Origin: Mycobacteriaceae bacterium
GTDB lineage: Bacteria; Pseudomonadota; Gammaproteobacteria; Burkholderiales; Burkholderiaceae_D
Length of the DNA: 64,000 nucleotides
Direction: 5' to 3'
Assembly: GCA_903970145.1 (NCBI GenBank)
Contig: CAJCHO010000087.1
Location: forward strand, 1 to 64,000
This document shows, piece after piece, positions 1,771 to 17,977 of this stretch; the stretch's first letter is position 1, and each line of letters starts with the position of its first letter. The position numbers were made by a program, and so were the translations under genes. A model generated the notes under the pieces. That model ran no database searches and was not told the origin of the DNA. It worked only from the letters and a program-made list of their open reading frames with translations.

Positions 1771-1828
1771 GCTGCACCCCGTACCGTTGCAGCAGAATTC
1801 GCTGCGACCGCCCTGATTGCGAGCGCGG

Positions 1829-1925: not shown

Positions 1926-2924
1926 TCAGGGGTCGATCGGGCCTGGATCGGCCTGCGCATCGGCCACGGGGTCCGGTTCCGGGCCGGCGAACGAGAGCAT
2001 GCGATCTAGGATCGCTTCGCGCGTTGGCTTGTGATTCTGGCCACCCGAAGCCTCGATGGCAAATGAACTCATGACTACCCCGAGTTGCGTGCAGCGAAGT
2101 AGTGGCCAGTCGCGTACGAATCCGTGAAGGAATCCAGCGCGCAAGGCGTCGCCGCACCCGGTCGGATCGACAATTTCGCGCGGCGCGGCGATATCAACAT
2201 GGAAGTGGCCGGCGAGACTGTAGACGTCGACCCCCGCAGCGCCGCGTGTGACCGCGAGGAACTGTGTTTCGGAGATCATCCACGAGCACTCTTCGGCAGG
2301 TTGATCGAGATCCTCGGAGAGCTGGGCTGCCTCGTTGTCGTTTAGAAATACCCCCTCTGCGTGACGCAGCAGCTGCGCCAGGGGCATCGTCCCGTCGGCG
2401 TCGCCTGCGATGAAGGCCGGCAGCGCCTGGCCGGGATCAAAAAAGTAGGTCTTGCGTTCAGCATGTGCGCGCCGCGCCAGCCACGCCGTGGTTGTCGGAT
2501 CTTCAGGGGCAAGGTGCCAGAGTTCCGGGGTCTGCTCCGGGACCTTGGGCTTGACCCTCATCGCGCCCGGAGCGAAGGCCGCGATCTGATTGTTGACGCT
2601 GTCAGTAAGAATCCACGCGTGCGCCGTAGCCGCGTCGGGCACGCGGGTGAGGGTGCCTACGTCAAGGCTATGCCAGTCGAGGCGTCGCAGGTAGGAATCG
2701 GCATCCTCACCGACGCTGCCAATCAAGAGAGGTCCATCACCCAGTAGCGATGCGTTGTACGCGATATTTCCGCCGGTACCGCCGTACTCCTGCTTGTAGG
2801 AGTCAACGCCGAACACGACGTTCAGGCGGGCCTCGCCATCGCGCGGCATTTTGGTATGAAACTCGCCACGATGCAGGAGCACCGAATCGTATGCGAAAGA
2901 TCCCGACAAGAGATAGGTGTACAT
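1926..2924 (-). CDS. PfkB-family carbohydrate/nucleoside kinase
   Basis: A 332-residue ribokinase-fold kinase that should transfer phosphate from ATP to a sugar or nucleoside in the cytoplasm. Both family signatures are visible: the substrate-side GGTGGNIAYN near residue 48 and the C-terminal DPTGCGDALRAGF, whose Asp is the predicted catalytic base (the usual Ala between the two Gly is Cys here). The sequence resembles proteobacterial enzymes labelled adenosine kinase more than ribokinase or fructokinase, but the substrate cannot be fixed from sequence. It appears to be a single gene with its own promoter at 3062-3090. Confidence 0.85.
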   Translation of the reverse strand: MYTYLLSGSFAYDSVLLHRGEFHTKMPRDGEARLNVVFGVDSYKQEYGGTGGNIAYNASLLGDGPLLIGSVGEDADSYLRRLDWHSLDVGTLTRVPDAATAHAWILTDSVNNQIAAFAPGAMRVKPKVPEQTPELWHLAPEDPTTTAWLARRAHAERKTYFFDPGQALPAFIAGDADGTMPLAQLLRHAEGVFLNDNEAAQLSEDLDQPAEECSWMISETQFLAVTRGAAGVDVYSLAGHFHVDIAAPREIVDPTGCGDALRAGFLHGFVRDWPLLRCTQLGVVMSSFAIEASGGQNHKPTREAILDRMLSFAGPEPDPVADAQADPGPIDP

Positions 2925-3061
2925 CTGGTTCCCGTTCGTTGTCCGCTGCCAGTTTGCACAGGTCGGCGCGAATGCAAGCGTCAGCGCGTCGATTCGACCT
3001 CGTCAGGGATCTTTCGGCATTTTTTGCCGACATTCAATCGGTATCTGGGGAGGTGCCTGTA

Positions 3062-3090
3062 AGTATCTGAATAAAATAAACAATATTCAA
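3062..3090 (-). promoter_or_regulatory. sigma70-like promoter for the PfkB kinase gene
   Basis: The minus strand carries TTGAAT (3085-3090), 17 bases, then GATACT (3062-3067) in an AT-rich patch. A short hairpin CGGCA-T6-TGCCG (3015-3029) lies in the roughly 130-base leader before the start codon. No experimental support. Confidence 0.45.
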
Positions 3091-3099
3091 TCGCCCGAG

Positions 3100-4833
3100 C
3101 TAGCCCGTGATGCGCCGCAAGACGGCTCGGGTTGCCAGGCGCACGCGCTGCTTTAACGGGAATCGTTTGAAATTGGTTTTCAGGACACCCTGGGTGAACG
3201 CGGTGCGCTTGCTGTAGTCGATGATCACCTCGACGATCACCGGGTTTCCGGCCGCGGTAGTCTGCTGAGCTCGCTCGATCACGGCGGCGATATCGCTGCT
3301 GCTGTCGATGCGCTCAAAGCTTGCCCCGACCGCCAGCGCCACGGCTTCGATATTGACCGGTGCGAGCACTGTGCAGGCTTTGCGGTTGTAGGGCAATTGC
3401 TGAGCCTGTGCGATCTGCGAGAGCTCGCCATCGTTGAATACGAAGAAGATCACACCGAGGCGATAGGTGACCGCGGTGACGATCTCCATACAGGTCATGC
3501 GAAAGCAGCCATCCCCGACGATGCAGTGGACCTGCTGGCCGGGGCGCGCAAGTTTGGCCCCAATGGCCGCGGGTATCGAATATCCCATCGCATTGAAGTC
3601 CGTCGGAACGATGCCGGACCCGGGTGTCAGTATCGGATACAGCTCGGCAACCAGATAGGTATGGTTGCCATCGTCGACAACCGTGACGGAGTCGCGCGGC
3701 GCGCGCGCCCGCAAGGCATCGAAGAAGCGCGCCGGATTGACCCGTCCCTTGCTGTCATGGCCGTACCACTGCTGCCGGTATTGTTTCTTGTCGCGCGCGA
3801 TCTGCTCAATCAGCGTGCGTCGCTCGTCACTACCGTGACCCAGACCGGTCAGGGTGGCGAGCAAGGCCGGCACCGCGACGCGCGCATCGCAGGCAATACC
3901 GACCTTTGCGGGATAGTTGGCCGAGAGCACCTCGGGATTGATGTCGATATGCACCAGGTTCGCCGGCGTGCTCACACCAAAGCTGCCGGTCGCGATCTCC
4001 CCAAATCGGGTTCCGATGGCGAGCATCGCATCGCATTTGGCGAAGGCTTCGCGAGCCGCGGGCACGGCCGCTTCCCCGAAGCTGAATCCGACATGCAAAG
4101 GATGGTCGGCCGGAAAAACCGAGAAGCCCTGGAGCGTTGTCGCTACAGGAGCCTGGAGGTACTCGGCGATCTGGCGAATTTCGTTGGTCACCCCGCGCGC
4201 GCCCCAGCCAACAAAGATCCCCGGATGCTGGGCATTGCGCAAGAGATGCGCTGCAGCGAGAAGATCCGCTTGTAGAGGCAATTCGGCGCGCGCATCCTTG
4301 ATAAAGGGAGGCAACTCGCCGACCTCCTCGGGGATGAGCTGCAAGTTGACGGGAAGCTCGATGAACACTGGGCCGGGGTCGCCGCGCGTGGCGATGCGAT
4401 AGGCCTCAAATATGGTCGGCACAATCTCGGCGTGCGATTCAATTGCGAAAGTTGCCTTGGTCAAACCCTTCATGAACTGGTGCAAATCCATTTCATGGAG
4501 CTGGAACTTGAAGGGCAGATCGGTGCGAATGCCACCGCAAATAACAAGCATCGGCACGCCGTCGAGAAAAGCTTCGCCGATGCCGCTGGCCGCGTGAGTC
4601 AGGCCAGCTGCCGGGACCACGACCAGAGTGCCGATGCTCTCGGACAGCCGTGACAGGGCGTCGGCCATGAAGGCGCCGCCCCCTTCGTGGACCACCAGAA
4701 TGGGCGTGATCGTAGGGGAGTTATTGAGCTCGTCGTAGAGCTCCGTGTTCTGGACACCCGGAATACCGAAGGTGTGCTTCACGCCGATGGCTTCCAGGGC
4801 GTAACGGGCCAGCCATGCGCCGGTCTTTTTCAT
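3100..4833 (-). CDS. ThDP-dependent enzyme, acetolactate synthase-like
   Basis: A 577-residue enzyme of the pyruvate oxidase/decarboxylase superfamily with the three classic domains: pyrimidine-binding (about 1-165), central (about 190-320) and ThDP-binding (about 370-530). Glu50 in VVHEGGG is the conserved activating glutamate. The GDG (440-442) to Asn467 spacing is the Mg-ThDP motif. It differs from housekeeping IlvB in its basic C-terminal tail and in lacking a neighbouring IlvH regulatory subunit, so a catabolic 2-oxoacid or benzoylformate-like substrate is as likely as pyruvate. It lies 30 bases downstream of the FAD dehydrogenase and is probably co-transcribed with it. Confidence 0.82.
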   Translation of the reverse strand: MKKTGAWLARYALEAIGVKHTFGIPGVQNTELYDELNNSPTITPILVVHEGGGAFMADALSRLSESIGTLVVVPAAGLTHAASGIGEAFLDGVPMLVICGGIRTDLPFKFQLHEMDLHQFMKGLTKATFAIESHAEIVPTIFEAYRIATRGDPGPVFIELPVNLQLIPEEVGELPPFIKDARAELPLQADLLAAAHLLRNAQHPGIFVGWGARGVTNEIRQIAEYLQAPVATTLQGFSVFPADHPLHVGFSFGEAAVPAAREAFAKCDAMLAIGTRFGEIATGSFGVSTPANLVHIDINPEVLSANYPAKVGIACDARVAVPALLATLTGLGHGSDERRTLIEQIARDKKQYRQQWYGHDSKGRVNPARFFDALRARAPRDSVTVVDDGNHTYLVAELYPILTPGSGIVPTDFNAMGYSIPAAIGAKLARPGQQVHCIVGDGCFRMTCMEIVTAVTYRLGVIFFVFNDGELSQIAQAQQLPYNRKACTVLAPVNIEAVALAVGASFERIDSSSDIAAVIERAQQTTAAGNPVIVEVIIDYSKRTAFTQGVLKTNFKRFPLKQRVRLATRAVLRRITG

Positions 4834-4863
4834 TAACTATCTCCTCTTTCATTTCGTGCCACG

Positions 4864-6486
4864 CTAGCGTCCGAGCAACTGGCGACCAAGCAGGCTCGCC
4901 GCGGCGGCGCGCCCAGTCAGGATGCAGCCGCCTAAAAAAGTGCCTTCGAGCGCGCGCAAGCCATGCATGCCGCCACCACCGAAGCCGGCCGCCTCGCCAA
5001 TTGCGAACAGGCCGCTGATCGGCGCGCCATTCGCATCCAGCACGCGCGACTCCAGATCGGTCTCGATGCCGCCCAGACTCTTGCGACTGATGATCGACTC
5101 ACGGATGGCAATCAACGGCATGGCACGCGCATCGACGATTTTCTGGCGCTTGCAGGTGCGAATGCGATCCCCGGTGTAGGTGCGCAGATAGGCGATGCGA
5201 CGCAACTGTTCATCGTTCATCAGTGCGGGTTTGCGGTCAAGCTGGGAATCGTAGGTCGCAACCGCTGCGTTGACGCGTTCGAATTGCACCGCGTCGTCGC
5301 CCTGTATGGCGTTCATGCGCTCGACCAGCTCGGCAATGCTGGTTGCCACCACAAAATCCTGGCAACGCTCGGTGAGCGTTTTCACCAGCCAGCGATTGCC
5401 AATGACCTGGTCGCGCAGGAAGGCCAGCCAGTGACGCTCGCGGATCGAGGGGTTGAACTCCGCTCCGGAAACGGCCAATTCCTTCAAGGCGATGCGCCAG
5501 TTGAGTACCTGCCATGAATATTGGCGTTCGGTCGCGCAAATGCGCGTGACGAGTTCGCGGGTATCAAAACCGGTGATCAGTGGCTCAGGTCCGAAGCGCT
5601 CGCCTTGCCAGTCGAGCCAGAGCGCCGAGCGCGGCGGAACGAGGCTCAGTCCGTGATCCGGCTTGCGCGGCGCAAAATGACGCACCCCGGCGGCGTAGTT
5701 CCACATGCGCTCAAGGTGGGTGATCTGGGCACCGCAGCGTTGGGCTGCGTCATGCAGCGTGCCGTCGGCAAAGCGGTGGGAGCCATTGAGCAGGGTCTCG
5801 GGTGCGCGACCCCAGTCACTGTGCCAGTTGGCGCGCACACGCTCCAAAGAGCCGTTCATGCCGCCCGCGGCGATGAATGCGGCGGCTCCAAGAAACTCGA
5901 ACTCGCTGCCATCGGACTCACGGTGTCCCCGGCAGCCGACGACCGCGCCTGCCCGAGTGACCAGGGACTCGACCCGGCAGTCGCAGTGAATCTCGAGTAG
6001 CGCTTGCGCTCGGTGATTGATGAGCTGATCGAGCAGCACCGTGATCAGGCGCTCGCCCGTCCCCCAGACAACATGAAAGCGCGGTACCGAATTACCGGGA
6101 CGGTATTGGCCGCGCTCGACCCAGTTCGGTACGGGAAAGTAGCCGATGCCACGCGCCTTGAGCCATTCGTAGACCTGCTTGGTGCAATGGTCGACGTAGG
6201 CGCGTGCCCAGAGCCTTGGCCAACGCTCGGACTCGCCGAACTCTGCGAAGGCGCACCAGTCGGAATAGGCCAGCTCCGGTGAATCCTTGATGCCCACGCG
6301 CCGCTGCTCAGCGCTGTCGACGACGAACATCCCGCCAAAGGCCTCACGTGCAAGGCCGCCAAGATTGGCGCGAGCGTCGCGATCAACGAGCGTGACGGGA
6401 ATCCCGCCATCGAGCAATTCGATGGCAGCGCTGATGCCGGCTATGCCGGCGCCGACGATCACAACTCGCGAATCTTTTCCCCCCAC
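4864..6486 (-). CDS. FAD-binding dehydrogenase (flavocytochrome/ketosteroid-dehydrogenase-like)
   Basis: A 540-residue FAD_binding_2-type flavoprotein. The N-terminal Rossmann motif is VIVGAGIAGISAA (GxGxxG at 12-17) with Asp35 in the ribose-binding position, followed by the family GGLAREAFGG loop. The C-terminal GEAAGFGGGGMHGLRALEG segment is the second FAD contact. Relatives are annotated as FAD-binding dehydrogenases or 3-oxosteroid 1-dehydrogenase-like enzymes; the real substrate is unknown. It is first gene of a two-gene unit with the ThDP enzyme and is divergent from an AraC-type regulator 87 bases away, which probably controls it. Confidence 0.82.
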   Translation of the reverse strand: MGGKDSRVVIVGAGIAGISAAIELLDGGIPVTLVDRDARANLGGLAREAFGGMFVVDSAEQRRVGIKDSPELAYSDWCAFAEFGESERWPRLWARAYVDHCTKQVYEWLKARGIGYFPVPNWVERGQYRPGNSVPRFHVVWGTGERLITVLLDQLINHRAQALLEIHCDCRVESLVTRAGAVVGCRGHRESDGSEFEFLGAAAFIAAGGMNGSLERVRANWHSDWGRAPETLLNGSHRFADGTLHDAAQRCGAQITHLERMWNYAAGVRHFAPRKPDHGLSLVPPRSALWLDWQGERFGPEPLITGFDTRELVTRICATERQYSWQVLNWRIALKELAVSGAEFNPSIRERHWLAFLRDQVIGNRWLVKTLTERCQDFVVATSIAELVERMNAIQGDDAVQFERVNAAVATYDSQLDRKPALMNDEQLRRIAYLRTYTGDRIRTCKRQKIVDARAMPLIAIRESIISRKSLGGIETDLESRVLDANGAPISGLFAIGEAAGFGGGGMHGLRALEGTFLGGCILTGRAAAASLLGRQLLGR

Positions 6487-6573
6487 CCGACGGCCTCATG
6501 TTGCAGCGAAACTTGTGGGACCGACGATACCCCGTTACTCTTCTTCACCGATTGACCAAAGAGCCGTACTGAG

Positions 6574-7620
6574 TTGACTGCAAAGCCAAGCGCCTCCAAG
6601 AGCTGGGTCGATACGATTATCTCGGCAGCTTTGCGCATGGGAGTCGCGCGCGAAGATCTGCTGGCGCATGCAGCGCTTAACGAGGACATCCTCAGGCAGG
6701 GACGCCTCGCGATGGACGACGTGACACGTCTGTGGCGCGCTGCCGGCGAGCTGACGGGAGACCCCGGTTTCGGCTTAAAGGTCGGCACTTCGGTTGGTCC
6801 GGCCAGCTTTGATGTGGTCGGCTTTCTGGTCCTCTCGGCAGCGTCCCTGCGCGATGCGGTCGGCAAACTGCAGGCATTTCAGCGCCTGATCAGCGACGGT
6901 GGGCGCTTTCAGATCCTCGCTGGAGAAAAGGCGAGCTGGCTGATTTATCACCCCCAGCAGGGTGAACTTGCCTTTAGTCACCACCAGATCGAAGCCGTGC
7001 TCGCCTCTGTCGTGCATTTTTCGAGTTGGGTGATGGGGTCTGCCCTGACTCCACGGGGTGTGCAGTTCTCGCATGAGGCGCGCAGCCCGGCTGCTGCCTA
7101 CCGTGCTGTGTTTGGTGAGCAGGTGCTATTCGGTGGCGCTTATAACGGGCTATTGCTCGATGACGCGCTGCTTGACGCGCCCTTGCCAACGGCCGATGCG
7201 GCACTGGCCGCATTGCACGACCGCTATGCCCATGCACAGCTGGCCGAGTTGTCGGGTGAACTCGATCTTCCGGATCGGGTTCGGCAGTGGCTGCAGACGG
7301 CCTTACCTGCCGGCCGTGCCGAGCGACGCCTGGCGGCACGGCAATTTGGAATGAGCGAGCGCTCGCTCGCGCATCGCCTTCAGTGCTCGGATACGAGCTT
7401 TGTCGCACTCGTCGAGCAGACCCGCCGCGAATTGGCGCTTGAGTTACTTGGCGAGGGCGCGCTCGATCTCGCTGCGATCGCGGCGCGCCTTGGCTTTTCT
7501 GAGCCCAGCGCTTTTTGCCGTGCGTTTCGACGCTGGCAGGGCGTGAGTCCGCGACGCTGGCAGCGCGGCGCACGCTCGCGGGTTCGCGAAGAAGACGGAG
7601 TACGTGGGGGGCCGCGTTGA
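6574..7620 (+). CDS. AraC-family transcriptional regulator (OruR/ArgR-like)
   Basis: A 348-residue regulator with an N-terminal arabinose-binding-type effector domain of the PF12625 kind (about 20-205) and a C-terminal AraC DNA-binding domain (about 230-335). The second helix-turn-helix is recognisable in LAAIAARLGFSEPSAFCRAFRRWQGVSPRRW. The start used is TTG; an ATG at 6637 would trim 21 residues but would cut into the conserved N-terminus. It is divergent from the FAD-dehydrogenase/ThDP-enzyme operon and most likely activates it in response to the small-molecule substrate. Confidence 0.85.
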   Translation: MTAKPSASKSWVDTIISAALRMGVAREDLLAHAALNEDILRQGRLAMDDVTRLWRAAGELTGDPGFGLKVGTSVGPASFDVVGFLVLSAASLRDAVGKLQAFQRLISDGGRFQILAGEKASWLIYHPQQGELAFSHHQIEAVLASVVHFSSWVMGSALTPRGVQFSHEARSPAAAYRAVFGEQVLFGGAYNGLLLDDALLDAPLPTADAALAALHDRYAHAQLAELSGELDLPDRVRQWLQTALPAGRAERRLAARQFGMSERSLAHRLQCSDTSFVALVEQTRRELALELLGEGALDLAAIAARLGFSEPSAFCRAFRRWQGVSPRRWQRGARSRVREEDGVRGGPR

Positions 7621-7737
7621 TGGCCGGATCGCCCCCCATTTATGGCAGCCGCACCCCCCAAGCGCGCGGGCGTTTCTTGCAAGAATCGCAGAATTGCCAA
7701 AAGAGTCTGCAACGGACCCGGGCGCGTGGGTGAAATC

Positions 7738-8445
7738 ATGGGGGAGCGAGTGCCGATCGGCGAGTTAGTGCAGGCAGCAGGCCTGCGGCGCAGTAATTGC
7801 TTTGCGCCGCTGACCGCGCTTTGGCTTTTTTTCGTGAGCATAGCCGCGGGCACAGCGTGGGCCGCCGACGCCGGCCCTGGCGCTGCGCTCTTCGCGACCT
7901 GCACCGCCTGTCACGGTCAGCACGCGGAGGGCAACGCCAAGATCGGTGCACCCAACCTGACCGGCCAGCAGTCTGCTTATCTGATACGCCAGCTGGAGGC
8001 CTTTTCGAGCGGTCGGCGCGGCACTCAGACAGGCGACAATTTTGGCGCCGTGATGCGCGCGACGGCAGGGCTCTTGAAGACCGACGCCGATCGGGCTGCG
8101 GTGAGTTCATACATCGCAAGTTTGCCCATCGTGCCCGTGCCCACCGGGAGTGCTGGCGCCAAGGCAGATCTGGCGACCGGGCGAAACTACTTCAACGGCA
8201 TCTGCAGCAATTGCCACGGTAGTGATGGCAAGGGCAACGGCCCGCTCAGTGCGCCGCGCCTGGTCGGTCAGGATCGCACTTACATCCTGCGCCAGTACGC
8301 GGCTTTCAAGTCCGGCGCGCGTGGCGCGGATCCCGCTGATACCTATGGCGTGCAGATGCGATCCATGACCCGCGCGCTACCCGACGAGAGGACCGAGCAG
8401 GCGGTCTTTGATTATTTGTCGACGCTCGGTGGCCAGGGTGGCTAA
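7738..8445 (+). CDS. diheme class I cytochrome c (c4-like)
   Basis: Predicted periplasmic diheme electron carrier of 235 residues. A hydrophobic signal segment (about 22-42, ending AWA) precedes two homologous cytochrome c domains with heme sites CTACH (55-59) and CSNCH (156-160). Met106 and Met207 are the likely sixth ligands. The tandem-domain design matches cytochrome c4. ATG 7738 is preferred over in-frame starts further upstream because it puts the signal peptide near the N-terminus. It is first gene of a three-gene heme operon and would shuttle electrons to or from the MauG-like enzyme encoded next. Confidence 0.85.
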   Translation: MGERVPIGELVQAAGLRRSNCFAPLTALWLFFVSIAAGTAWAADAGPGAALFATCTACHGQHAEGNAKIGAPNLTGQQSAYLIRQLEAFSSGRRGTQTGDNFGAVMRATAGLLKTDADRAAVSSYIASLPIVPVPTGSAGAKADLATGRNYFNGICSNCHGSDGKGNGPLSAPRLVGQDRTYILRQYAAFKSGARGADPADTYGVQMRSMTRALPDERTEQAVFDYLSTLGGQGG

Positions 8446-9616
8446 TATCGGGTCGCTGCGACTGTGGGCTTACGGCACGGTTCTCGCCGTGCTGCTCCTC
8501 GGGGTTCTGAACGCCCCAGCCAACATACCCGGCACGAATGCACCCGCTCTTGCGACGACTTGTCCCGCGGGCTTCGTGCTGACCGGGCAGTCCTGCCGGC
8601 TTGATAGCCCCTACCTGCATTACAAGTCCCTGGAGAGTCAGGGGGTCGGCGGTTTGAAGACCGGTCTGCCCGCATTTCGCGACGGCTTTAGTCCCAAGCA
8701 GATTGATCTGGGCCGTTACCTGTTCTTTGATCCGCTGCTCTCGGCCGATCACTCGGTCTCATGCGCGCATTGCCACAATCCTGCTCACGCGTTTACTGAT
8801 GGCCTGGCGCACAGCCGCGGCATCGGCGGGCGCGAGACGAGCCGCAATGCGCCGAGCTTGTGGAACGTCGGTTTCCTGCAAAAGCTCTTTGTGGACGGAC
8901 GCGCGAGTTCGCTCGAGGAGCAGATGCAAGGGCCGCTTTACGGTGCCAATGAAATGGGCAACTCGCGCGAGGGATTGCTGGCCGCCATCAACGCCGTGCC
9001 GGCTTATCGCGCACTATTTGCACAGGTTTTTCCGGATGCCGCCAGCGGCATTCGTTCCGAGCATGTCTACGCCGCGATTGCGGCATTCGAGAGTTCCCTC
9101 GTCTCGCTCAATAGCCGCTACGATCTTTACGCCAATGGCATCCTCGGTGCCTTGAGTCCCAAGGAAATCGAAGGCATGAACGTGTTCCGCTCTTTTGTTG
9201 CGCGCTGTGCCGAATGCCATACGCCGCCGCTCTTCACCAATCAGCAGATCGCCGTGATCGGCATGCCCGATGGCGCCGGACACTCCTTCGATCCGGGCGC
9301 CGAGGCCAACACCCATGTCGACTCGATGCGCGGCGGGTTTCGCGTTCCATCCCTGCGCAATGTCGAGTTGACCTCACCCTACAATCACGCCGGCGCATTC
9401 ACTACCCTTCGCGAGACGGTTTCCTTCTATACCCAAGGACGTGGTCACGCCGTTCCCGCACAGGAGAAGCTCAATCTGCACTGGCATATCTGGGAACCCA
9501 AGCTTACCGATGCAGAACTTGACCGGTTGGTCGATTTTCTAAAGACGCTTACCGATCAATCCTACATGCCGACCATGCCGGCGGCGGTCCCGTCAGGACT
9601 ACCACCGGGCGCTTAG
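8438..9616 (+). CDS. MauG/cytochrome c peroxidase-family diheme enzyme
   Basis: A 392-residue secreted diheme protein. The GTG start at 8438 overlaps the preceding stop by eight bases, suggesting translational coupling. A signal anchor occupies about 10-27. Heme sites are CAHCH (109-113) and CAECH (257-261), with the family FRVPSLRNVELTSPYNHAG region after the second. Where bacterial CcpA peroxidases place a Met ligand, this protein appears to have Tyr331 (ETVSFYTQGRG), as in MauG-type enzymes that oxidise protein substrates through high-valent iron. An extra N-terminal CPAGFVLTGQSC segment (42-53) may form a disulfide loop. Substrate unknown; the beta-helix protein next door is a candidate partner. 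Confidence 0.85.
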   Translation: MANIGSLRLWAYGTVLAVLLLGVLNAPANIPGTNAPALATTCPAGFVLTGQSCRLDSPYLHYKSLESQGVGGLKTGLPAFRDGFSPKQIDLGRYLFFDPLLSADHSVSCAHCHNPAHAFTDGLAHSRGIGGRETSRNAPSLWNVGFLQKLFVDGRASSLEEQMQGPLYGANEMGNSREGLLAAINAVPAYRALFAQVFPDAASGIRSEHVYAAIAAFESSLVSLNSRYDLYANGILGALSPKEIEGMNVFRSFVARCAECHTPPLFTNQQIAVIGMPDGAGHSFDPGAEANTHVDSMRGGFRVPSLRNVELTSPYNHAGAFTTLRETVSFYTQGRGHAVPAQEKLNLHWHIWEPKLTDAELDRLVDFLKTLTDQSYMPTMPAAVPSGLPPGA

Positions 9617-9648
9617 CAGACCTACGAGACCCAACCAAGAGGAACAAC

Positions 9649-11163
9649 ATGTCCACCAAAACAGTACTGGCCACCGCAATCGTCGCAGTCATTGGCGTGG
9701 CTGCAGGAGCCTACCTGGGCAAGACCTATCTGGCCAGTTCAGGTGCGGGTCTGAGCGAGACGGACTCGGCAACCGTCGTGCTGGCGGGAACCAAGGGGAG
9801 TAATGACCAGGCCAGCGCCGGTCTGCGAGACGCGGCGCGCAGCGGCAAGATCATTACCGTCAAAGCCGGTCAGTCGATCCAAGAGGCGGTGCGCAGTGCC
9901 CAGCCGGGCGATACGATCCAGGTCATGCCAGGCGAGTACAAGGAGACCGTCTACATCGACAAGGACAACATCAGTCTGATCGGCAGTATCCAGGATGGCC
10001 ACTGGCCAACCCTCGAAGGCGAGGGCAAGCTCAACGATGCGGTGCTCTATTCAGGCAATGGAGTGCGCGTCGAAAACCTCAAGATCACGCATTACAAGGG
10101 CAATGCCATCATGGGCCAGGCGGGCAACAATTTCGTTGTGCGCCATAACCTGATCGTGGACGCAGGTGTATACGGCATCTTCCCCGAATTCGGCAAGAAC
10201 GGCCTGATCGAATACAACGTACTCTCCGGAATTGCTGACGCCGCGATCTACATTGGCATGAGCGACAACATCCACGCGGCGCACAACGAGGTATTTGGCA
10301 ATGTCGCCGGGATCGAGGTCGAGAATTCGCGCCACGTGATCGTCGAGAACAATACCGCTTACGACAACGCCGGAGGCATCCTGACTTTCATTACGCCAGG
10401 CCTGCCGATCAAGACAACCCAGGATGTGGTGATACGCAATAACTTCATCGCCGGCAACAACCACAAGAACTTCGGCGCGCCGGGCTCGATCGTTTCGGGC
10501 CTGCCTTCCGGGTCGGGCGTGGTGATCATGGCCGCCAAGGATGTGATCGTCGAGAACAACATCATTCGCGACAACAAGAACGCGGGAATCATCGTCGTTG
10601 ATCACAAGCAGTTCGCCAACGTTACGGCGGATCCCCAGACCGATCCGACTCCGACACGCGTGCAACTGCTCAACAATGTCATGAGCAACAACGGCTACGA
10701 TCCGATCTCGGACATCAAGGCGCTCATGACGGTCGCCCTGACCAAGGAAGGGCCGGACGTGGTCGCTGCCGGTACCGGCAAGGACAACTGCATGCTCGAC
10801 AAGGGCCATTACCACACGCTCGGCTTGTCCGACTATCCGCAGTGCGCGCGTACCAATACCGCTGACATTTCAACCTACCTGCTCGATAAGCCGGCCGAGC
10901 CGCGCGACATCACGATCACCGACAAGGGCAAGCTCGTGTACTACGCGGTGTGCGCCGGCTGTCATGCGTTCAACTCACGCATGATCGGCCCACCCACGGT
11001 CGTCATCCAGAGCCTGTATCCGAACAATGCCAAGGGGATTGCCGACTACATCGCCCATCCAGTCAAAAAGCGTGACGACTTCCCCGCGATGCCAAGCCAG
11101 GATTATCTGTCTCCCGAAATCCGCGCTGCTGCGGCTGAATATATGCTCAACGTTAAGCAGTAG
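9649..11163 (+). CDS. parallel beta-helix (NosD-like) protein with C-terminal cytochrome c domain
   Basis: A 504-residue exported protein with an N-terminal membrane anchor or signal (about 5-24). A beta-helix cap lies at about 84-115 (QSIQEAVRSAQPGDTIQV), then a right-handed parallel beta-helix runs to about 355, built from Asn-rich turns such as VIVENNTAYDNAGGI and VVIRNNFIAGNN. The final part is a single cytochrome c domain with CAGCH at 435-439 and probable Met481 ligand (PAMPSQ). NosD/PbH1 domains usually bind carbohydrates or help metal-site assembly; fusion to a heme domain is unusual. It starts 32 bases after the MauG-like gene and is clearly part of that operon. Function not known. 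Confidence 0.83.
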   Translation: MSTKTVLATAIVAVIGVAAGAYLGKTYLASSGAGLSETDSATVVLAGTKGSNDQASAGLRDAARSGKIITVKAGQSIQEAVRSAQPGDTIQVMPGEYKETVYIDKDNISLIGSIQDGHWPTLEGEGKLNDAVLYSGNGVRVENLKITHYKGNAIMGQAGNNFVVRHNLIVDAGVYGIFPEFGKNGLIEYNVLSGIADAAIYIGMSDNIHAAHNEVFGNVAGIEVENSRHVIVENNTAYDNAGGILTFITPGLPIKTTQDVVIRNNFIAGNNHKNFGAPGSIVSGLPSGSGVVIMAAKDVIVENNIIRDNKNAGIIVVDHKQFANVTADPQTDPTPTRVQLLNNVMSNNGYDPISDIKALMTVALTKEGPDVVAAGTGKDNCMLDKGHYHTLGLSDYPQCARTNTADISTYLLDKPAEPRDITITDKGKLVYYAVCAGCHAFNSRMIGPPTVVIQSLYPNNAKGIADYIAHPVKKRDDFPAMPSQDYLSPEIRAAAAEYMLNVKQ

Positions 11164-11214: not shown

Positions 11215-12019
11215 GGCGTGCGTGCTGCCTCATCAGGGAGGCGATGGCATCAAGGACCGCCGCACCCTGGTCCCGATGCGCAGAGTGGCCAGCATCGGCT
11301 AGCTCAAGCAACTCTGTCTGCGGAACTGCGCGGCCGATCGCGCGGATCTGCTCAAGGGTGCCGTACTCGTCATCGATGCCCTGGATTGCCAGCAGCGGAC
11401 AGCGGATCGCGGCGATCTCCGGGACGATCGACCACGCACGAAATTCTGGATCGAGCCAGATCCGGTTCCAGCCCCAAAAGGCCGAGTCGACATCGTCGTG
11501 ATAGCGGGCAAGACGCTCCCGCAAATCAGTCGTCAGGTAGCTCGACCGGGCGCGTTCGATGCTCAAGATCGAGAGGTCCTCGACCATCACGTGCGGCGCA
11601 ATGACGATCGCGCCGGCGAGTGCGTTCAGATAGCGCGCGGCAAAGAGCAGGGCGATCGAGCCACCATCACTATGGCCGAGTAGCCAGAGTGGCTGCTCCT
11701 GGGGATCAATTTCCAGCGCGTCAAACAGCACCGGCAGCACTTCGTGCGCTTGGCGATGCATGAAGTCGACGCCCCAGAGCTCGTCCGGTGCACGCGGGGT
11801 GGAACGACCATAACCGGGCCGTGAATAGACGAGACCACGACAAGCGCAGCGCTCGCACAGCATCTGCGGGAAATCGCGCCACATGGCGCGCGAGCCCAGC
11901 CCCTCGTGCAGGAACACGACGAGCGGAGCATCCTCGTCAGCGCTGCCGAGCCATTGGTACTCGATGCGGACCGGGCGTCCGCGCCACTCGATGGTAGCAA
12001 ACGAGACGGGCCCGGTCAC
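11198..12019 (-). CDS. alpha/beta hydrolase of the benzoate cluster
   Basis: A 273-residue alpha/beta-hydrolase-fold protein. The oxyanion-hole region is VVFLHEGLGS, the nucleophile elbow GHSDGG carries the catalytic Ser, an acidic residue sits in QGIDDEYG, and the catalytic His is in DAGHSAHRDQ. Its GTG start overlaps the TGA of the benzoate-CoA ligase gene (GTGA), so the two are translationally coupled. Hydrolases of this type are found in box gene clusters, where they may act as thioesterases or cleave a benzoyl ester; the substrate is not established. Confidence 0.82.
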   Translation of the reverse strand: MTGPVSFATIEWRGRPVRIEYQWLGSADEDAPLVVFLHEGLGSRAMWRDFPQMLCERCACRGLVYSRPGYGRSTPRAPDELWGVDFMHRQAHEVLPVLFDALEIDPQEQPLWLLGHSDGGSIALLFAARYLNALAGAIVIAPHVMVEDLSILSIERARSSYLTTDLRERLARYHDDVDSAFWGWNRIWLDPEFRAWSIVPEIAAIRCPLLAIQGIDDEYGTLEQIRAIGRAVPQTELLELADAGHSAHRDQGAAVLDAIASLMRQHARPPSGH

Positions 12020-13605
12020 TTTGCCCCGGCTTCTCGTTCACGCAACTTGAAGCGCTGGATCTTGCCGGTTGCCGTCTTGGGAAGTTCCGCGACGAATTCG
12101 ATCGCGCGCGGATACTTGTATGGCGCAAGGCGTTCCTTGACGAAAGCCTTGAGCTCGGCCTCATTGGTTTCATGTCCAGGTTTCAGGACGACGAATGCCT
12201 TGCTTTTTACGAGGCCCTGATCGTCGACTCCGATGAGTGCCGCTTCGAGCACCGCCGGATGTTGGGCGAGAGTCGACTCGACTTCGAAGGGTGACACGAA
12301 CATGCCCGAGACCTTGAGCATGTCGTCGCTGCGACCCGCATAGGTATAGGTGCCGTCGCCGTTGCGCACATATTTGTCGCCGCTCTTGGTCCAGACACCC
12401 TGAAAGGTCTCGCGCGACTTGTCGCGGCTGCGCCAGTAGAGCAGCGCAGCACTGGGTCCGCGGATGTATAGATCACCGGTTTCGCCGTCGACGACCGCCT
12501 TGCCGTCCTCGCCGCGCAACTCGACTTCGTAGCCTGGCACCGGCCATCCGGTGGTGCCGTAGCGCACGTTTCCTGGCTGGTTCGAGATGAAGATGTGCAG
12601 CATCTCGGTCGATCCAATGCCATCGATGATCTCGCAGCCAAAGTGGGCCGTGAAGCGCTCACCCAGATCGGCGGGAAGTGCCTCGCCTGCCGACGAGCAC
12701 AGGCGCAGCTTCACCTGATCCCGCTTTGGTAGTCCGGCTGCGGCGAGCAGGCCCGCAAAGCCTGTTGGGGCGCCAAAGAAGATGCTTGGCTTTAGACCGG
12801 CGATCGCCCCGCGCCAGCGCTTGATGATGGCGTCCGGGGTCGGGCGTTCGGCCATCAGGATCGTGGTTGCGCCGACGGACAGTGGAAAAGACAGGGCATT
12901 GCCGAGTCCGTATGCAAAAAAGAGCTTTGCGGCCGAAAAGCAGATATCGCTCTCGCGCACGCCAAGCAGCGGCCTACCGTAGAGCTCGGCGGTGTAATAG
13001 GGATTGACCTGACTATGCAGCATGCCCTTGGGCCGTCCGGTCGATCCGGAAGAGTAGAGCCAGAAACCAGGATCGTCGGGGGCCGTATTCGCCGGCGCTG
13101 GTCGGGGTGGGTGGTCCTCATGGAGGCTCGCAAAGCTTTGTGTGCCTTCAGGCGTGGCCGCTGCGCCTGAGACGAAGACATGGCCGACTTCGTGACCACC
13201 GCTTACTTGCGCCTTGGCGAGTGCGCTTTGCAAGGTGGGCAAGAGCGCAGCCGAAACCAGGACCGCCTGCGCGCGGCAGTGCTGGACGATGTAGGCGTAG
13301 TCGTCAGCAGTCAGGAGCGTATTGACGGCGACCGGTACGACGCCGCCATACATCGCCCCAAGAAAGGCTACCGGCCAGTCATTGCAGTCGTGCATGAGGA
13401 GCAACACGCGTTCTTCGCGGCGAATGCCGCGGGCAAGAAGGCCCCCGGCCAGCCCGCGCACGCGCTGCGCCAGTTCGCCATAGCCGAGGCTGCCGGAATC
13501 ATCGACGTAGGCGAGTTTTTGGCCGCGCGCCCCATTGCGCTCAATCAGATGCTGTGCAAAATTGAAGTGCTCGCCCACGGGCGGTGCGACATGCGCGCTG
13601 GTCAC
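12016..13605 (-). CDS. bclA: benzoate-CoA ligase
   Basis: A 529-residue AMP-forming acyl-CoA synthetase that activates benzoate to benzoyl-CoA with ATP and CoA, the entry step of the box pathway. The AMP-binding motif YSSGSTGRPKG is at 184-194. Further signatures are GSTEMLHIF, the YAGRSDDMLKVSG hinge and the C-terminal PKTATGKIQRF containing the catalytic Lys. The N-terminal block EHFNFAQHLIERN is typical of benzoate-CoA ligases rather than general acetate-type enzymes. Location next to boxR and boxCBA fixes the substrate assignment. It is divergent from boxR. Confidence 0.93.
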   Translation of the reverse strand: MTSAHVAPPVGEHFNFAQHLIERNGARGQKLAYVDDSGSLGYGELAQRVRGLAGGLLARGIRREERVLLLMHDCNDWPVAFLGAMYGGVVPVAVNTLLTADDYAYIVQHCRAQAVLVSAALLPTLQSALAKAQVSGGHEVGHVFVSGAAATPEGTQSFASLHEDHPPRPAPANTAPDDPGFWLYSSGSTGRPKGMLHSQVNPYYTAELYGRPLLGVRESDICFSAAKLFFAYGLGNALSFPLSVGATTILMAERPTPDAIIKRWRGAIAGLKPSIFFGAPTGFAGLLAAAGLPKRDQVKLRLCSSAGEALPADLGERFTAHFGCEIIDGIGSTEMLHIFISNQPGNVRYGTTGWPVPGYEVELRGEDGKAVVDGETGDLYIRGPSAALLYWRSRDKSRETFQGVWTKSGDKYVRNGDGTYTYAGRSDDMLKVSGMFVSPFEVESTLAQHPAVLEAALIGVDDQGLVKSKAFVVLKPGHETNEAELKAFVKERLAPYKYPRAIEFVAELPKTATGKIQRFKLREREAGAK

Positions 13606-13769
13606 GAGTAAATCCTCATGTGCGTGGCTGACCTCAGCCCGTGCATTCGAGTAGGACAGTCACGAAATTCGCTCTCGGTCGTCGCCAAACGTCCTCCTGA
13701 TTCCAGGCTTGCGGTGAGCTGGAAGATGAATTATTGTGCGTGTATGAACCTTAGCGCTTCAAATTGGCG

Positions 13770-14735
13770 ATGTCAAGCAATATAGTGCATCAGGCCGGTG
13801 CTGGGCTCGCCCCTTCCGAAGCCGGCACGTCGGCCTCTGCCGGCGCCAGCGACAGCTCGCGGGGCGATTCCAGGAGTCCCATCCTCGTTGCGCTCGGCGA
13901 GCGCGTCAAGGCGCTGCGTGCGCGGCGCGGCATGACGCGAAAGGCGGTCGCGGCGGCTGCCCAGGTTTCCGAGCGTCATCTGGCCAATCTGGAGTACGGC
14001 ATCGGCAACGCCTCGATCCTGGTTCTCGCCCAGGTCGCTCTTGCCTTGCAATGTTCTCTGGCAGAACTCATCGGCGACGTGACCACGAGCTCGCCGGAAT
14101 GGCTGTTGTTGCGCGAACTGCTGCAAGCGCGCGATGAGGCGACGCTGCACCGGGTGCGCGTGGCCGTCGCGCAGCTTCTGGGGATGGGGGGCGCTGCCGG
14201 AGTGCGCAGCGCGCGCGTGGCCTTGATCGGCCTGCGCGGAGCAGGCAAATCTACGCTGGGGCAGATGCTTGCCAGCGACCTGGGATTTCCGTTTGTCGAG
14301 CTCTCGCGCGAGATCGAGAAATTTGCCGGCTGCAATATCTCCGAGATCCAGGCGCTGTATGGGATGAATGCCTATCGACGCTACGAGCGGCGCGCGCTTG
14401 AAGAGGCGATCCAGATCCATCCCGAAGCCGTGATCGCGACGCCAGGAGGTCTGGTTTCGGATCCCGCGACCTTTAACCAGCTGCTGGCCCATTGCACCAC
14501 GGTCTGGCTGCAGGCCGACCCCGAGGATCACATGAAGCGCGTCGCGGCCCAGGGCGACCTGCGTCCGATGGCGGCGAGCAAGGAAGCCATGCAGGACTTG
14601 AAGGGCATTCTTGCCGGTCGCGCCCCCTTCTACTCGAAGGCCGAGTTCGTTCTAAATACCAGCGCCCAGGCGCTTGAGCCAAGCTTCGAGGCCCTGCGCG
14701 AGATAGTACGCAGCGCGCTTGGCATGGCTATCTGA
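13770..14735 (+). CDS. boxR: BoxR/BzdR-type regulator, HTH plus shikimate-kinase-like domain
   Basis: A 321-residue transcriptional regulator of benzoyl-CoA metabolism. An XRE-type helix-turn-helix (about 42-100) is joined to a shikimate-kinase-like domain (about 148-315) with P-loop GLRGAGKS (154-161). In the BoxR/BzdR family this second domain senses benzoyl-CoA and relieves repression. ATG 13770 was chosen over a TTG two codons earlier. It lies between the divergent ligase gene and boxC. A TGCA-N6-TGCA-like site overlaps its first codons, suggesting it represses itself. Confidence 0.93.
   Translation: MSSNIVHQAGAGLAPSEAGTSASAGASDSSRGDSRSPILVALGERVKALRARRGMTRKAVAAAAQVSERHLANLEYGIGNASILVLAQVALALQCSLAELIGDVTTSSPEWLLLRELLQARDEATLHRVRVAVAQLLGMGGAAGVRSARVALIGLRGAGKSTLGQMLASDLGFPFVELSREIEKFAGCNISEIQALYGMNAYRRYERRALEEAIQIHPEAVIATPGGLVSDPATFNQLLAHCTTVWLQADPEDHMKRVAAQGDLRPMAASKEAMQDLKGILAGRAPFYSKAEFVLNTSAQALEPSFEALREIVRSALGMAI
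13776..13789. promoter_or_regulatory. putative BoxR operator over the boxR start
   Basis: AGCA-N6-TGCA (AGCAATATAGTGCA) sits six bases inside the boxR reading frame. It matches the TGCA-N6-TGCA operator known for the BzdR/BoxR family with one mismatch, and its AT-rich core resembles the site at 14782-14795. Overlap with the start codon region would suit autorepression and control of the divergent ligase gene. Confidence 0.5.
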
Positions 14736-14781
14736 ATGGGGCACGAGCCCGTCTCGAAACTCCTTGACGGACACGGGAACA

Positions 14782-14795
14782 TGCAATATTATGCC
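14782..14795. promoter_or_regulatory. putative BoxR operator upstream of boxC, distal
   Basis: TGCA-ATATTA-TGCC, one mismatch from the TGCA-N6-TGCA consensus, 50 bases upstream of the boxC GTG. The core is nearly the same as in the site at the boxR start. Confidence 0.55.
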
Positions 14796-14813
14796 TATTT
14801 GATGCCGAGAAAA

Positions 14814-14827
14814 TGCATTATCTTGCT
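14814..14827. promoter_or_regulatory. putative BoxR operator upstream of boxC, proximal
   Basis: TGCA-TTATCT-TGCT, one mismatch from consensus, starts 32 bases after the distal site (three helical turns), so two bound BoxR molecules could lie on the same face of the DNA. It is 17 bases upstream of the start codon, where it would block transcription or its start. Confidence 0.5.
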
Positions 14828-14844
14828 TATAGCGGGGGTCTGCT

Positions 14845-16503
14845 GTGTCTAATCCAGTCGGAGTTGATTTTCAAACGGAACCCGCGCGCTATCGCCACTG
14901 GAAGTTGAGTTTCGATGCGGGCGTGGCCACGCTCGCCATGGACGTTGACGAGAATGCGGGTCTGCGCGAGGGCTACAAGCTCAAGCTCAATAGTTACGAC
15001 CTTGGGGTCGACATCGAGCTCCACGACGCGGTCAACAGGATCCGTTTCGAGCACCCCGAAGTACGCTGCGTGGTTCTGACGAGCGCCAAGGACAAGGTGT
15101 TCTGTTCGGGCGCCAACATCTTCATGCTCGGCAGCTCGAGTCACGCCTGGAAGGTCAACTTCTGCAAGTTCACTAATGAGACGCGCAACGGCATCGAGGA
15201 TTCCTCGCGCAGCGGCAGCCTGAAATTTCTGGCGGCCGTGAACGGCTCCTGCGCTGGCGGAGGTTACGAGCTGGCACTTGCCTGCGATGAAATTCTGCTC
15301 GTTGATGATCGCTCAAGCGCGGTCAGCCTGCCCGAAGTGCCACTGCTGGGAGTATTGCCTGGTACCGGGGGCCTCACGCGACTGACCGACAAGCGCCACG
15401 TCCGCCATGATCTTGCCGACGTCTTCTGCACGACTACCGAGGGCGTACGCGGTGCCAGGGCCAAGCAATGGCGCCTGGTCGATCAGATCGCCAAGCCTGC
15501 TGTCTTCGCCGAAACAGTACGTGAGCGCTCGCTCGCGCTGGCGGCGCAGAGCGATCGTCCGAAGCACGCAAAGGGTGTGCCTCTGACGGCACTCACACGC
15601 AGCTATGAGGCCAATGGCGTGCGCTATACGCACGTCAGTATCGACATCGATCGCGCCAAGCGCGTCGCTACTCTAACCATCAGGGCTCCTGAAGGTGAGC
15701 AGCCAACCGACGCGGCTGGCATCGAATCGGCCGCTGCGAGCTGGTATCCGCTAGCGATGGCGCGCGAGCTCGATGATGCGATCCTGCACATGCGCGCCAA
15801 CGAATCCGAGATCGGAACCTGGCTGGTGAAGACCCAGGGGAGGGCAGAGGACGTGTTGGCGCTCGATGCTCTGATGCAAGCACACGGCAGCAATTGGCTG
15901 GTGCGCGAAACCATCGGTCTGATGCGACGCACTTTTGCTCGCCTTGATGTCACCTCGCGCAGCCTGTTCGCGCTCGTCGAGCCTGGCTCCTGCTTTGCCG
16001 GCAGCTTCTTCGAACTCGCCCTCGCTTGTGATCGTATCTATCACCTCGCCCTGCCGGACGACCCGCCTGGCGCACCCAGGGTGACAGTCGGTGAGGCGAA
16101 CTTCGGGCTCTTGCCGATGGCAACAGGCCAGAGCCGGCTGCAAAGACGCTTTTATAACGAAGAGGCCGCCTTGGAGGCTGTGCGCGCGCGCGCCGGCCAG
16201 GCGCTCGATGCCGACGCCGCATTCGAAATAGGTCTTGCCACCAGTAACCCCGACGACATCGACTGGACCGATGAGGTGCGCTTGGCGCTCGAAGAGCGCG
16301 CCGCGATGTCGCCGGACGCCCTCACGGGGCTTGAGGCCAATCTGCGCTTTAACGGCGCCGAGAACATGCAGACACGGATCTTTGGCCGTCTCACCGCCTG
16401 GCAGAACTGGATTTTCCAGCGACCCAATGCTGTTGGAGATAAAGGTGCGCTAAAGGTCTACGGTAAAGGCGACAAGGCGGCCTTCGACTGGAATCGCGTC
16501 TGA
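14845..16503 (+). CDS. boxC: benzoyl-CoA-dihydrodiol lyase (2,3-epoxybenzoyl-CoA dihydrolase)
   Basis: A 552-residue protein of the enoyl-CoA hydratase superfamily that opens the ring of 2,3-epoxybenzoyl-CoA, yielding 3,4-dehydroadipyl-CoA semialdehyde and formate. Two crotonase-like halves are visible. The N-terminal half has the oxyanion-hole strand VLTSAKDKVFCSGANIFML and NGSCAGGGYELALACDEI; the second half has PGSCFAGSFFELALACDRI. Length and sequence are typical for BoxC. It starts with GTG behind AGCGGGGG. First gene of boxCBA and preceded by two candidate BoxR operators. Confidence 0.95.
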   Translation: MSNPVGVDFQTEPARYRHWKLSFDAGVATLAMDVDENAGLREGYKLKLNSYDLGVDIELHDAVNRIRFEHPEVRCVVLTSAKDKVFCSGANIFMLGSSSHAWKVNFCKFTNETRNGIEDSSRSGSLKFLAAVNGSCAGGGYELALACDEILLVDDRSSAVSLPEVPLLGVLPGTGGLTRLTDKRHVRHDLADVFCTTTEGVRGARAKQWRLVDQIAKPAVFAETVRERSLALAAQSDRPKHAKGVPLTALTRSYEANGVRYTHVSIDIDRAKRVATLTIRAPEGEQPTDAAGIESAAASWYPLAMARELDDAILHMRANESEIGTWLVKTQGRAEDVLALDALMQAHGSNWLVRETIGLMRRTFARLDVTSRSLFALVEPGSCFAGSFFELALACDRIYHLALPDDPPGAPRVTVGEANFGLLPMATGQSRLQRRFYNEEAALEAVRARAGQALDADAAFEIGLATSNPDDIDWTDEVRLALEERAAMSPDALTGLEANLRFNGAENMQTRIFGRLTAWQNWIFQRPNAVGDKGALKVYGKGDKAAFDWNRV

Positions 16504-16549
16504 CGGGTTATCTGGCCAGGCGCCTGCCTTGGCCGTATTGGAGAACACC

Positions 16550-17977
16550 ATGACTGGCATCAACTACAGCGACAAGATTCCCAATAACGTGAACCTTAGC
16601 GAGGACCGGACGCTGCAGCGCGCGCTCGAGCAGTGGCAGCCCAACTTCCTGTCCTGGTGGGGAGACATGGGGCCCGACGGTTCGCAGGACTTCGACGTCT
16701 ACCTGCGCACGGCAACCGGCGTCGATCCCCAGGGCTGGGCACAGTTTGGCTATGTGAAAATGCCCGACTATCGCTGGGGGATCTTTCTCAATCCGGCTGA
16801 AGCGGGACGCAAGATCCACTACGGCGACCACAAGGGCGAGGATGCCTGGCAGGATATTCCGGGCGAGTATCGGGCCAACCTGCGACGCATCATTGTCACG
16901 CAGGGTGACACCGAGCCGGCATCGGTCGAGCAGCAGCGTCACCTCGGACTGACGGCACCAAGCCAGTACGATCTGCGCAACCTGTTTCAGGTAAATGTCG
17001 AGGAGGGGCGGCACCTGTGGGCGATGGTTTACCTGCTCCACCGCTACTTCGGTCGCGACGGTCGCGAGGAAGCCGAAGCGCTCCTCGAGCGGCGCTCGGG
17101 GCAAGAGGACAATCCGCGCATCCTGCAGGCCTTTAACGAGCCTACCCCCGACTGGCTCAGTTTTTTCATGTTCACGTACTTCACCGACCGGGATGGCAAA
17201 TTCCAGTTGTGCGCTCTGGCCGAAAGCTCCTTCGATCCTCTGGCTCGGACCACCAAGTTCATGTTGACCGAGGAAGCGCACCACATGTTTGTAGGTGAGT
17301 CAGGGGTTTCGCGCATCATCGCGCGCACCTGCCAGGTCATGAACGAACTCAAGACTGAGGACGTCACCCGGTTGCGCTCGGCCGGGGTGATCGATCTGCC
17401 AACCCTGCAGCGCTACCTGAATTTCCACTTCAGCGTCACCATCGATCTGTTTGGTGCGGACGAGTCGAGCAATGCTGCGACTTTCTACTCAAGCGGCCTC
17501 AAGGGCCGCTACGAAGAGGGCAAGCGCAGCGATGATCACGTGTTGAAAGGCGCGACCTACAAGGTGATCAACGTAGAGGGCGGCGAACTCGTCGACAAGG
17601 AGGTGCCGATGCTTAACGCCTTGAACGAGGTGCTGCGCGATGATTTCATCAAGGATAGCGTCGCGGGAGTCGAACGCTGGAACAGGGTGATCGAAAAGGC
17701 CGGAATTGCTTTCCGATTGAAAGTGCCGCACAAGGCATTTCATCGCAAGATCGGCGCGCTTTCCGGAGTCCATGTCTCGCCCGAAGGTCGGGTTATCACG
17801 GCCGCGCAGTGGCACGACGAGCAGGATACCTGGCTGCCTTCGGGCGCGGATCGTAGCTACGTCGCGAGCCTGATGGGTCGGGTCATCGCCCCTGGCAAGT
17901 TCGCCAACTGGATTGCTCCGCCCGTCATGGGGATCAATCGACAAGCGGTAGACTACGAATACGTACGCTTTAACTGA
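16550..17977 (+). CDS. boxB: benzoyl-CoA 2,3-epoxidase, oxygenase subunit
   Basis: A 475-residue di-iron monooxygenase that epoxidises benzoyl-CoA with O2, taking electrons from BoxA. Iron ligands come from a ferritin-like four-helix fold; the paired ExxH motifs EEGRH and EEAHH are both intact. ATG 16550 is preferred over an upstream in-frame TTG because GGAG sits seven bases before it and the start then matches the family N-terminus (INYSDKIPNNVNL). It lies 46 bases after boxC. Confidence 0.96.
   Translation: MTGINYSDKIPNNVNLSEDRTLQRALEQWQPNFLSWWGDMGPDGSQDFDVYLRTATGVDPQGWAQFGYVKMPDYRWGIFLNPAEAGRKIHYGDHKGEDAWQDIPGEYRANLRRIIVTQGDTEPASVEQQRHLGLTAPSQYDLRNLFQVNVEEGRHLWAMVYLLHRYFGRDGREEAEALLERRSGQEDNPRILQAFNEPTPDWLSFFMFTYFTDRDGKFQLCALAESSFDPLARTTKFMLTEEAHHMFVGESGVSRIIARTCQVMNELKTEDVTRLRSAGVIDLPTLQRYLNFHFSVTIDLFGADESSNAATFYSSGLKGRYEEGKRSDDHVLKGATYKVINVEGGELVDKEVPMLNALNEVLRDDFIKDSVAGVERWNRVIEKAGIAFRLKVPHKAFHRKIGALSGVHVSPEGRVITAAQWHDEQDTWLPSGADRSYVASLMGRVIAPGKFANWIAPPVMGINRQAVDYEYVRFN

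Follow-up and report, generated by a model that had tools for sequence, protein, structure and literature searches.

A MauG-like diheme enzyme encoded as a conserved pair with a beta-helix-cytochrome protein, its possible partner

Enzymes of the MauG type modify protein side chains by long-range electron transfer. The 64,000-nucleotide stretch analysed here (the window; contig CAJCHO010000087.1 of assembly GCA_903970145.1, positions 1 to 64,000) carries a compact heme-protein operon at 7642/7738–11163, and this locus raises the question of whether its MauG-like enzyme acts on the beta-helix-cytochrome protein encoded beside it. We find that these two genes are a conserved pair rather than a one-strain accident and that, judged by sequence, the locus reads as a beta-helix/cytochrome module in a MauG-containing form. 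Three open reading frames (ORFs) on one strand make up the operon:

7642..8445, + strand: diheme class I cytochrome c, exported, with CTACH and CSNCH (PF00034/PF13442)
8408..9616, + strand: MauG-like diheme enzyme with two CxxCH motifs (PF03150 CCP_MauG, E 3.9e-51)
9649..11163, + strand: beta-helix-cytochrome protein, TIGR03805 'parallel beta-helix' with a C-terminal cytochrome c domain

An earlier note on this DNA had described three tightly packed heme-protein genes, and the layout agrees with it: the first two ORFs overlap, and 32 bases that include AAGAGGA separate the second from the third. The cytochrome may begin at either of two ATG codons, 7642 or 7738. The MauG-like ORF opens at TTG 8408, with GTG 8438, which overlaps the stop codon of the cytochrome gene, as the likelier start. 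The note's name for the cytochrome, a c4-like carrier, is right as to a diheme class I cytochrome; 'c4-like' is descriptive only, as all NCBIfam matches fall below their cut-offs.

Pairing across genomes

A pattern scan of genome contigs with the beta-helix-cytochrome protein, which finds close relatives only, returned 52 loci with 51–63% identity in the best segment; they are mostly gammaproteobacterial, three being labelled only 'proteobacterium' or 'Proteobacteria'. In 51 of them the gene immediately 5' of the beta-helix-cytochrome gene, in the same orientation, is the MauG-like one; the contig of the remaining locus (L013) begins inside the MauG-like gene. Eight further loci (L159–L164, L185 and L186) all have the MauG-like gene. 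The adjacency is more than chance because it recurs in all determinable loci, and the earlier note's reservation that the genes might be neighbours in this strain alone can be set aside.

The third gene is kept less strictly. An ortholog of the diheme cytochrome is present in 47 of the 52 loci (cut in one), four are undeterminable at contig ends, and no copy was found next to the pair in L053 or L164, nor in L186 before the contig ends less than 1 kb upstream of the pair. The cytochrome is usual, not universal, and the core is therefore the pair of enzyme and beta-helix-cytochrome protein. At L053 a DsbA/thioredoxin-like gene (6056–6742; family assigned by eye) takes the place of the cytochrome gene.

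Among 398 Pseudomonadota genomes, with at most four candidates scored in each, the same seven hold both proteins and no others do. The beta-helix-cytochrome protein scores at least 678.9 bits in these seven and 221 in the next-best genome, and the enzyme at least 621.9 and 260, respectively. The distance matrices of enzyme and partner, compared over 47 rows, show a correlation of r = 0.86 that none of 999 permutations reached; shared descent alone can explain it.

The gene set also occurs in Ruegeria pomeroyi, with a tetratricopeptide repeat gene interposed ahead of the beta-helix gene. A search of 59 other genomes, 35 from the window's own family and 24 more from its order, yielded no full ortholog; the best partial match there was 30% over 312 residues. 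The rows nearest to the window are L003 and L004, from two uncultured proteobacteria, and because of this and the patchy distribution in the family and order, the window's genome may have acquired the genes by transfer. The patchiness bears on spread and not on mechanism. In eight Halieaceae/Luminiphilus loci (L035, L036, L037, L042, L044, L046, L047 and L054) the operon stands directly behind dnaG-/rpoD-like genes (families assigned by eye), a fixed chromosomal place.

The enzyme and its beta-helix partner

The phmmer alignment sets '...PSLRNVELTSPYNHAGAFTTLRETVSFY' of the window enzyme against '...LFY' of the solved MauG, and Tyr341, by a position counted from the printed alignment, falls on MauG Tyr294. 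The bacterial cytochrome c peroxidase (CCP) 3o5c has Met at the matching position. In the alignment Tyr341 thus replaces the Met ligand of the CCP-type high-potential heme, and as neither Met nor His stands there, the note's Tyr ligand, which it numbered Tyr331, is borne out. Tyr341 is identical in all 50 complete orthologs (48 from the 52-locus set, Ruegeria and the window; four loci with cut or missing genes were excluded). Tyr is also common at the site among 29 other relatives drawn by similarity, 27 having Tyr and two Met, so that the ligand appears usual among MauG-like relatives rather than special to this enzyme. An excerpt of PMC6405878 gives MauG and BthA as Tyr-His and canonical CCPs as Met-His at this heme.

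A second site sets the window enzyme apart. Aligned to the CCP stretch FWDGRA, rather than to MauG at that stretch, position 162 is Val (GTG codon, 8891–8893), and the enzyme alone among the 50 orthologs reads FVDGRA; the other 49 have Trp, as do 28 of the 29 other relatives, the last having His. We take the Trp of FWDGRA to be the inter-heme Trp. Other invariant features are Cys52/Cys63, His347, the His-Trp-His at 358–360 and a C-terminal P395-S396-G397. H347, H358, W359 and H360, just past the Tyr ligand, are kept in 50 of 50 orthologs and do not appear in the stretch of MauG that was aligned; this region (347–362) is possibly a metal site or an interface.

The enzyme does not fall into a named family. 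Its best NCBIfam score is 212 bits on TIGR04039 (MbnH; cut-off 362.85), with the L003 ortholog at 213.5, and its second-best is 182 bits on TIGR03791 (MauG; cut-off 443.85). The AF2 model, whose mean pLDDT is only 69.7 and which falls below 50 at 267–287 and 323–329, has MbnH 6e1c as its top structural match (Z 21.6, rmsd 3.3, 306 aligned), followed by CCPs at Z of about 20 and BthA at Z 18.7–19.2. In a 43-row tree that includes 14 of the 50 orthologs, these group together with support (98/95 with Ruegeria), and the six MbnH-type rows fall outside their clade.

The partner belongs to a known family, scoring 182 bits on TIGR03805 against a cut-off of 141.5. It consists of an N-terminal hydrophobic helix, a right-handed beta-helix at about 68–402 and a cytochrome c domain at about 423–502, with CAGCH at 435–439. 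The heme domain is class I with c551/c552-like matches, and its invariant Met481 is likely the second heme ligand. The predicted model has the right-handed beta-helix fold and is similar to mannuronan epimerases of the AlgE type and to polysaccharide lyases, with AlgE6 5lw3 at Z 32.0 (rmsd 2.1, 280 aligned, 19% identity). NosD 7osf is also close (Z 27.0), with the protein scoring 59 bits on the NosD family TIGR04247 against a cut-off of 300. The AlgE catalytic motif is presumably Tyr..Asp-Pro-His with a Lys; if the positions are equivalent, Y175 and P179 are kept, and F178 and E/Q180 differ.

TIGR03805 proteins are also encoded with the diheme cytochrome TIGR03806, and comparing 58 MauG-paired with 15 TIGR03806-paired beta-helix sequences separates the residues of one type from those of both. 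Y102, M155 and M204 are present in 58/58 of the former versus 0/15 of the latter, and Y134 and Y149 in 57/58 versus 0/15; the TIGR03806-paired type has Lys at the M155 site and Gln at the M204 site, each in 15/15. K105, fixed in 58/58, is likewise distinctive of the MauG-paired type. Y175, D197, Y201, E223, E225 and N226 are identical in all 73 sequences. Y134, M155, F178, Y201 and E223 recur every 21–23 residues along predicted strands, and by strand register they should stack on one face of the beta-helix. Kynurenine formation is known from the MbnH/MbnP system, and we considered a Trp-to-kynurenine or tryptophan tryptophylquinone (TTQ)-like target here. W119, the sole Trp of the window protein, is not invariant (Trp in 51 of 58, Arg in 5, Tyr in 2), and a universal Trp target is therefore unlikely.

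Related systems and surroundings

The TIGRFAMs record itself notes that TIGR03805 pairs with TIGR03806. Another 38 genomes have a weaker match to the beta-helix; from these we took 14 pair loci and three fusion loci, and in 14/14 opened pair loci a TIGR03806-like diheme cytochrome gene adjoins the TIGR03805-type gene; a separate pair over both cut-offs is found in Novosphingobium. Five loci (L180–L184; three from the 38 genomes and two from another search) have single ORFs of about 880–1040 residues that match both the beta-helix and the TIGR03806-like cytochrome. NCBIfam finds both domains in L077 as well, the TIGR03806 part at 195.9 bits against a cut-off of 313.3 in an ORF cut at the locus end, and L076 and L078 appear by eye to hold such fusions too. 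Across the Pseudomonadota loci opened, the beta-helix is tied to c-type heme in three ways: a separate TIGR03806 protein, a fused one, or a MauG-like enzyme with a fused monoheme domain. The tie to c-type heme is not universal; the exception is Hymenobacter volaticus, whose plasmid relative at L067 (7818–8816, 'parallel beta-helix domain-containing') lies among glycoside hydrolase and short-chain dehydrogenase/reductase (SDR) genes. The idea that TIGR03806 is a hidden MauG homolog was rejected, as profile comparison in one-profile databases gave 15.7% probability to the MauG-like family and 79.7%, over 81 columns, to the diheme class I cytochrome.

The window locus shares with this pair the beta-helix family and the c-type heme tie; like some loci of the MauG-containing type, 5 of the 14 opened pair loci and Novosphingobium have a TonB-receptor match nearby. 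Where the pair has TIGR03806, loci of the window's type have a MauG-like enzyme and a monoheme domain fused to the beta-helix, in most cases together with a diheme class I cytochrome, and none of the window's three heme ORFs in the operon matches TIGR03806 at E 0.01 in NCBIfam. The earlier note knew of no named system of this composition. That stands for the MauG-containing variant, of which we found no description in the literature searched and, for the Ruegeria cluster under old locus tags guessed from gene order, no mention in papers; it does not stand for the beta-helix protein, which lies in TIGR03805.

Closest among MauG-type systems is MbnH–MbnP, in which the gene of a MauG-like diheme enzyme likewise adjoins that of a single partner and which provides the best family score and structural match. 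The window enzyme nevertheless lies below the TIGR04039 cut-off in a separate clade, and its partner is a beta-helix-cytochrome protein rather than MbnP. MbnP (TIGR04052) was not found in the window's genome and is over the cut-off in three of the seven genomes with the locus, beside a different MauG-like gene. In G632, G660 and G445 a separate MauG-like gene stands beside an MbnP gene over the cut-off and the beta-helix gene stands with another, and each MauG-like enzyme therefore has its own neighbour. With MauG and methylamine dehydrogenase the enzyme shares the Tyr ligand position and the diheme fold, whereas its TIGR03791 score is below the cut-off and the presumed inter-heme Trp is replaced in the window; the methylamine dehydrogenase light chain (PF02975) was not found in six of the seven genomes, including the window's own, which is 94.55% complete. 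The mtoX-SCO1-mauG operon for methanethiol oxidase likewise joins a MauG-like gene to a partner oxidase, argued by its authors to carry a TTQ cofactor (PMC5739008, in excerpt), but that partner is SBP56 rather than a beta-helix, and no copper chaperone gene was seen at the window locus. BthA, a Burkholderia diheme enzyme, resembles the window enzyme in its Tyr-His heme and in lacking an inter-heme Trp (Ser in BthA, Val here), and differs in that the window enzyme's orthologs otherwise keep the Trp and its partner is a beta-helix; an excerpt of PMC6405878 mentions a phosphatase partner. The window's genome has a second MauG-like gene (contig 11, region 956–5425) that abuts a 396-aa monoheme protein with no Pfam match, near a metallophosphoesterase-like gene, a setting that resembles that of BthA.

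Two genes flank the operon on its 5' side:

6574..7620, + strand: AraC-family regulator (Arabinose_bd and HTH_18), directly 5' of the diheme cytochrome gene
4864..6486, − strand: FAD-binding dehydrogenase (NF009472, over cut-off), upstream

The AraC-type protein, which scores below the cut-offs of both the QhpR and GliR models, is possibly the regulator of the three genes; an AraC gene also adjoins the Ruegeria cluster, there divergent. A thiamine pyrophosphate enzyme and the FAD-binding dehydrogenase (3100–6486, −) diverge from the AraC gene, and a homolog of the latter is divergent from the operon in 8 of the 52 loci (three Woeseiaceae, two Chromatiales and three other metagenome-assembled genomes). 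On the other side lie benzoate (box) genes at 12016–19305, namely benzoate-CoA ligase (−), a BoxR-like regulator, boxC, boxB and boxA, all of which exceed their NCBIfam cut-offs. An integrase domain-containing protein at the window edge (299–1513, −; 265 bits, model cut-off 434) is possibly the sign of a genomic island. Among ORFs of at least 90 residues in the window, CxxCH is found in the three operon genes and in one at 35023–36186, to which Pfam assigns cytochrome c domains only.

A TonB-dependent receptor family is present within the fetched flanks of 19 of the 52 loci and of five of six additional ones. Neighbours among the 52 also include SDR (14), FAD dehydrogenase (8), aldehyde dehydrogenase (6) and haloalkane dehalogenase (7), the last with a GST-like gene in 7 (GST-like by eye). 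Reading a substrate from these genes was tried and abandoned, since no enzyme family recurs across loci and neighbours go with lineages.

What the pair may do

Our preferred interpretation, to which we give a probability of about 0.38, is that the locus encodes a periplasmic redox module in which enzyme and partner are dedicated to each other and the MauG-like enzyme oxidises its partner. Once charged with H2O2, or with O2 and electrons, the enzyme would pull electrons from its partner over a distance, like MauG with pre-methylamine dehydrogenase and MbnH with MbnP, and one or more beta-helix residues would be oxidised, the candidates being Y102, Y134, Y149, M155 and M204, which are kept in the MauG-paired type only. 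We hypothesize that the matured beta-helix-cytochrome protein may then oxidise some substrate and, via the fused heme, pass electrons to the diheme cytochrome and on to the respiratory chain. The analogy with MauG and methylamine dehydrogenase, MbnH–MbnP and MtoX-SCO1-MauG relies on a proposed rule by which MauG-like genes lie next to their target. Proven MauG-type protein substrates are few, namely methylamine dehydrogenase and MbnP, and the rule generalises from a handful of established examples. A more specific form, in which the enzyme builds a protein-derived redox cofactor in the beta-helix groove and the beta-helix acts as a dehydrogenase with the fused heme as electron outlet, seems to us doubtful.

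Several observations weigh against oxidation of the partner. Beta-helix relatives without MauG are the strongest argument against maturation of a shared core: no MauG-like match is present in the fetched stretch of 14/14 pair and 5/5 fusion loci, and the Hymenobacter relative has no CxxCH ORF of at least 80 residues within 16.8 kb. The core job may need no MauG, because Y175 and the five other residues identical in all 73 sequences are common to both types. The window enzyme is alone in having Val162 in place of the presumed inter-heme Trp, the partner's only Trp varies, and the heme carried by the partner could do no more than donate electrons. This last point leads to a tentative but serious alternative, plain electron transfer, in which the enzyme acts as a peroxidase, or senses peroxide, and receives electrons from the beta-helix heme, the diheme cytochrome or both, with the beta-helix serving as a scaffold for docking or cell-wall binding. 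The partner does have its own class I heme domain, and because all 14 pairs and five fusions tie the beta-helix to c-type hemes, electron transfer looks like the common denominator. CCPs and MauG have a Trp between the hemes; BthA has Ser at that place and nonetheless forms bis-Fe(IV) and keeps peroxide turnover according to an excerpt of PMC6405878, as the window enzyme with Val162 might. Yet the Tyr ligation is of the MauG type and unlike that of typical CCPs, strict pairing with one large beta-helix protein exceeds what a general peroxide scavenger needs, and the Hymenobacter relative has no heme gene near.

It is also conceivable, though unlikely, that what the enzyme oxidises is a small molecule or a polymer, bound by the beta-helix and perhaps imported via a neighbouring TonB receptor. 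Other members of the superfamily, RoxA and the oleate-diol-synthase enzymes, have small molecules or polymers as substrates, and the likeness of the model to AlgE6 and polysaccharide lyases, the receptors in the flanks and the dehydrogenase neighbours of some loci would fit such a role. Diheme relatives are also described as oxygenating substrates (PMC4496055 and PMC6797691, both in excerpt). A common fold proves no function, however, no single metabolic neighbour is conserved, and the presumed Asp-Pro-His motif of AlgE appears not to be kept (F178-P179-E180). That the two genes merely lie side by side and do not work together is extremely improbable given the conserved adjacency, the co-occurrence in the same seven of 398 genomes and the correlated distances.

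The locus joins two partly known kinds, a MauG-like enzyme with a dedicated partner and a TIGR03805 beta-helix with c-type heme. MauG-like genes are common, a CCP/MauG-type match (peroxidases included) being present in 206 of the 398 Pseudomonadota genomes, while proven protein substrates are few, and a conserved partner turns a vague 'cytochrome c peroxidase' annotation into a directly testable pair. The three alternative heme ties, with one Bacteroidota exception, hint at the role of the TIGR03805 beta-helix family. We know of no earlier MauG-type maturation target on a beta-helix fold, and if the enzyme does build a cofactor in its partner, the beta-helix-cytochrome protein would be another such target after methylamine dehydrogenase and MbnP.

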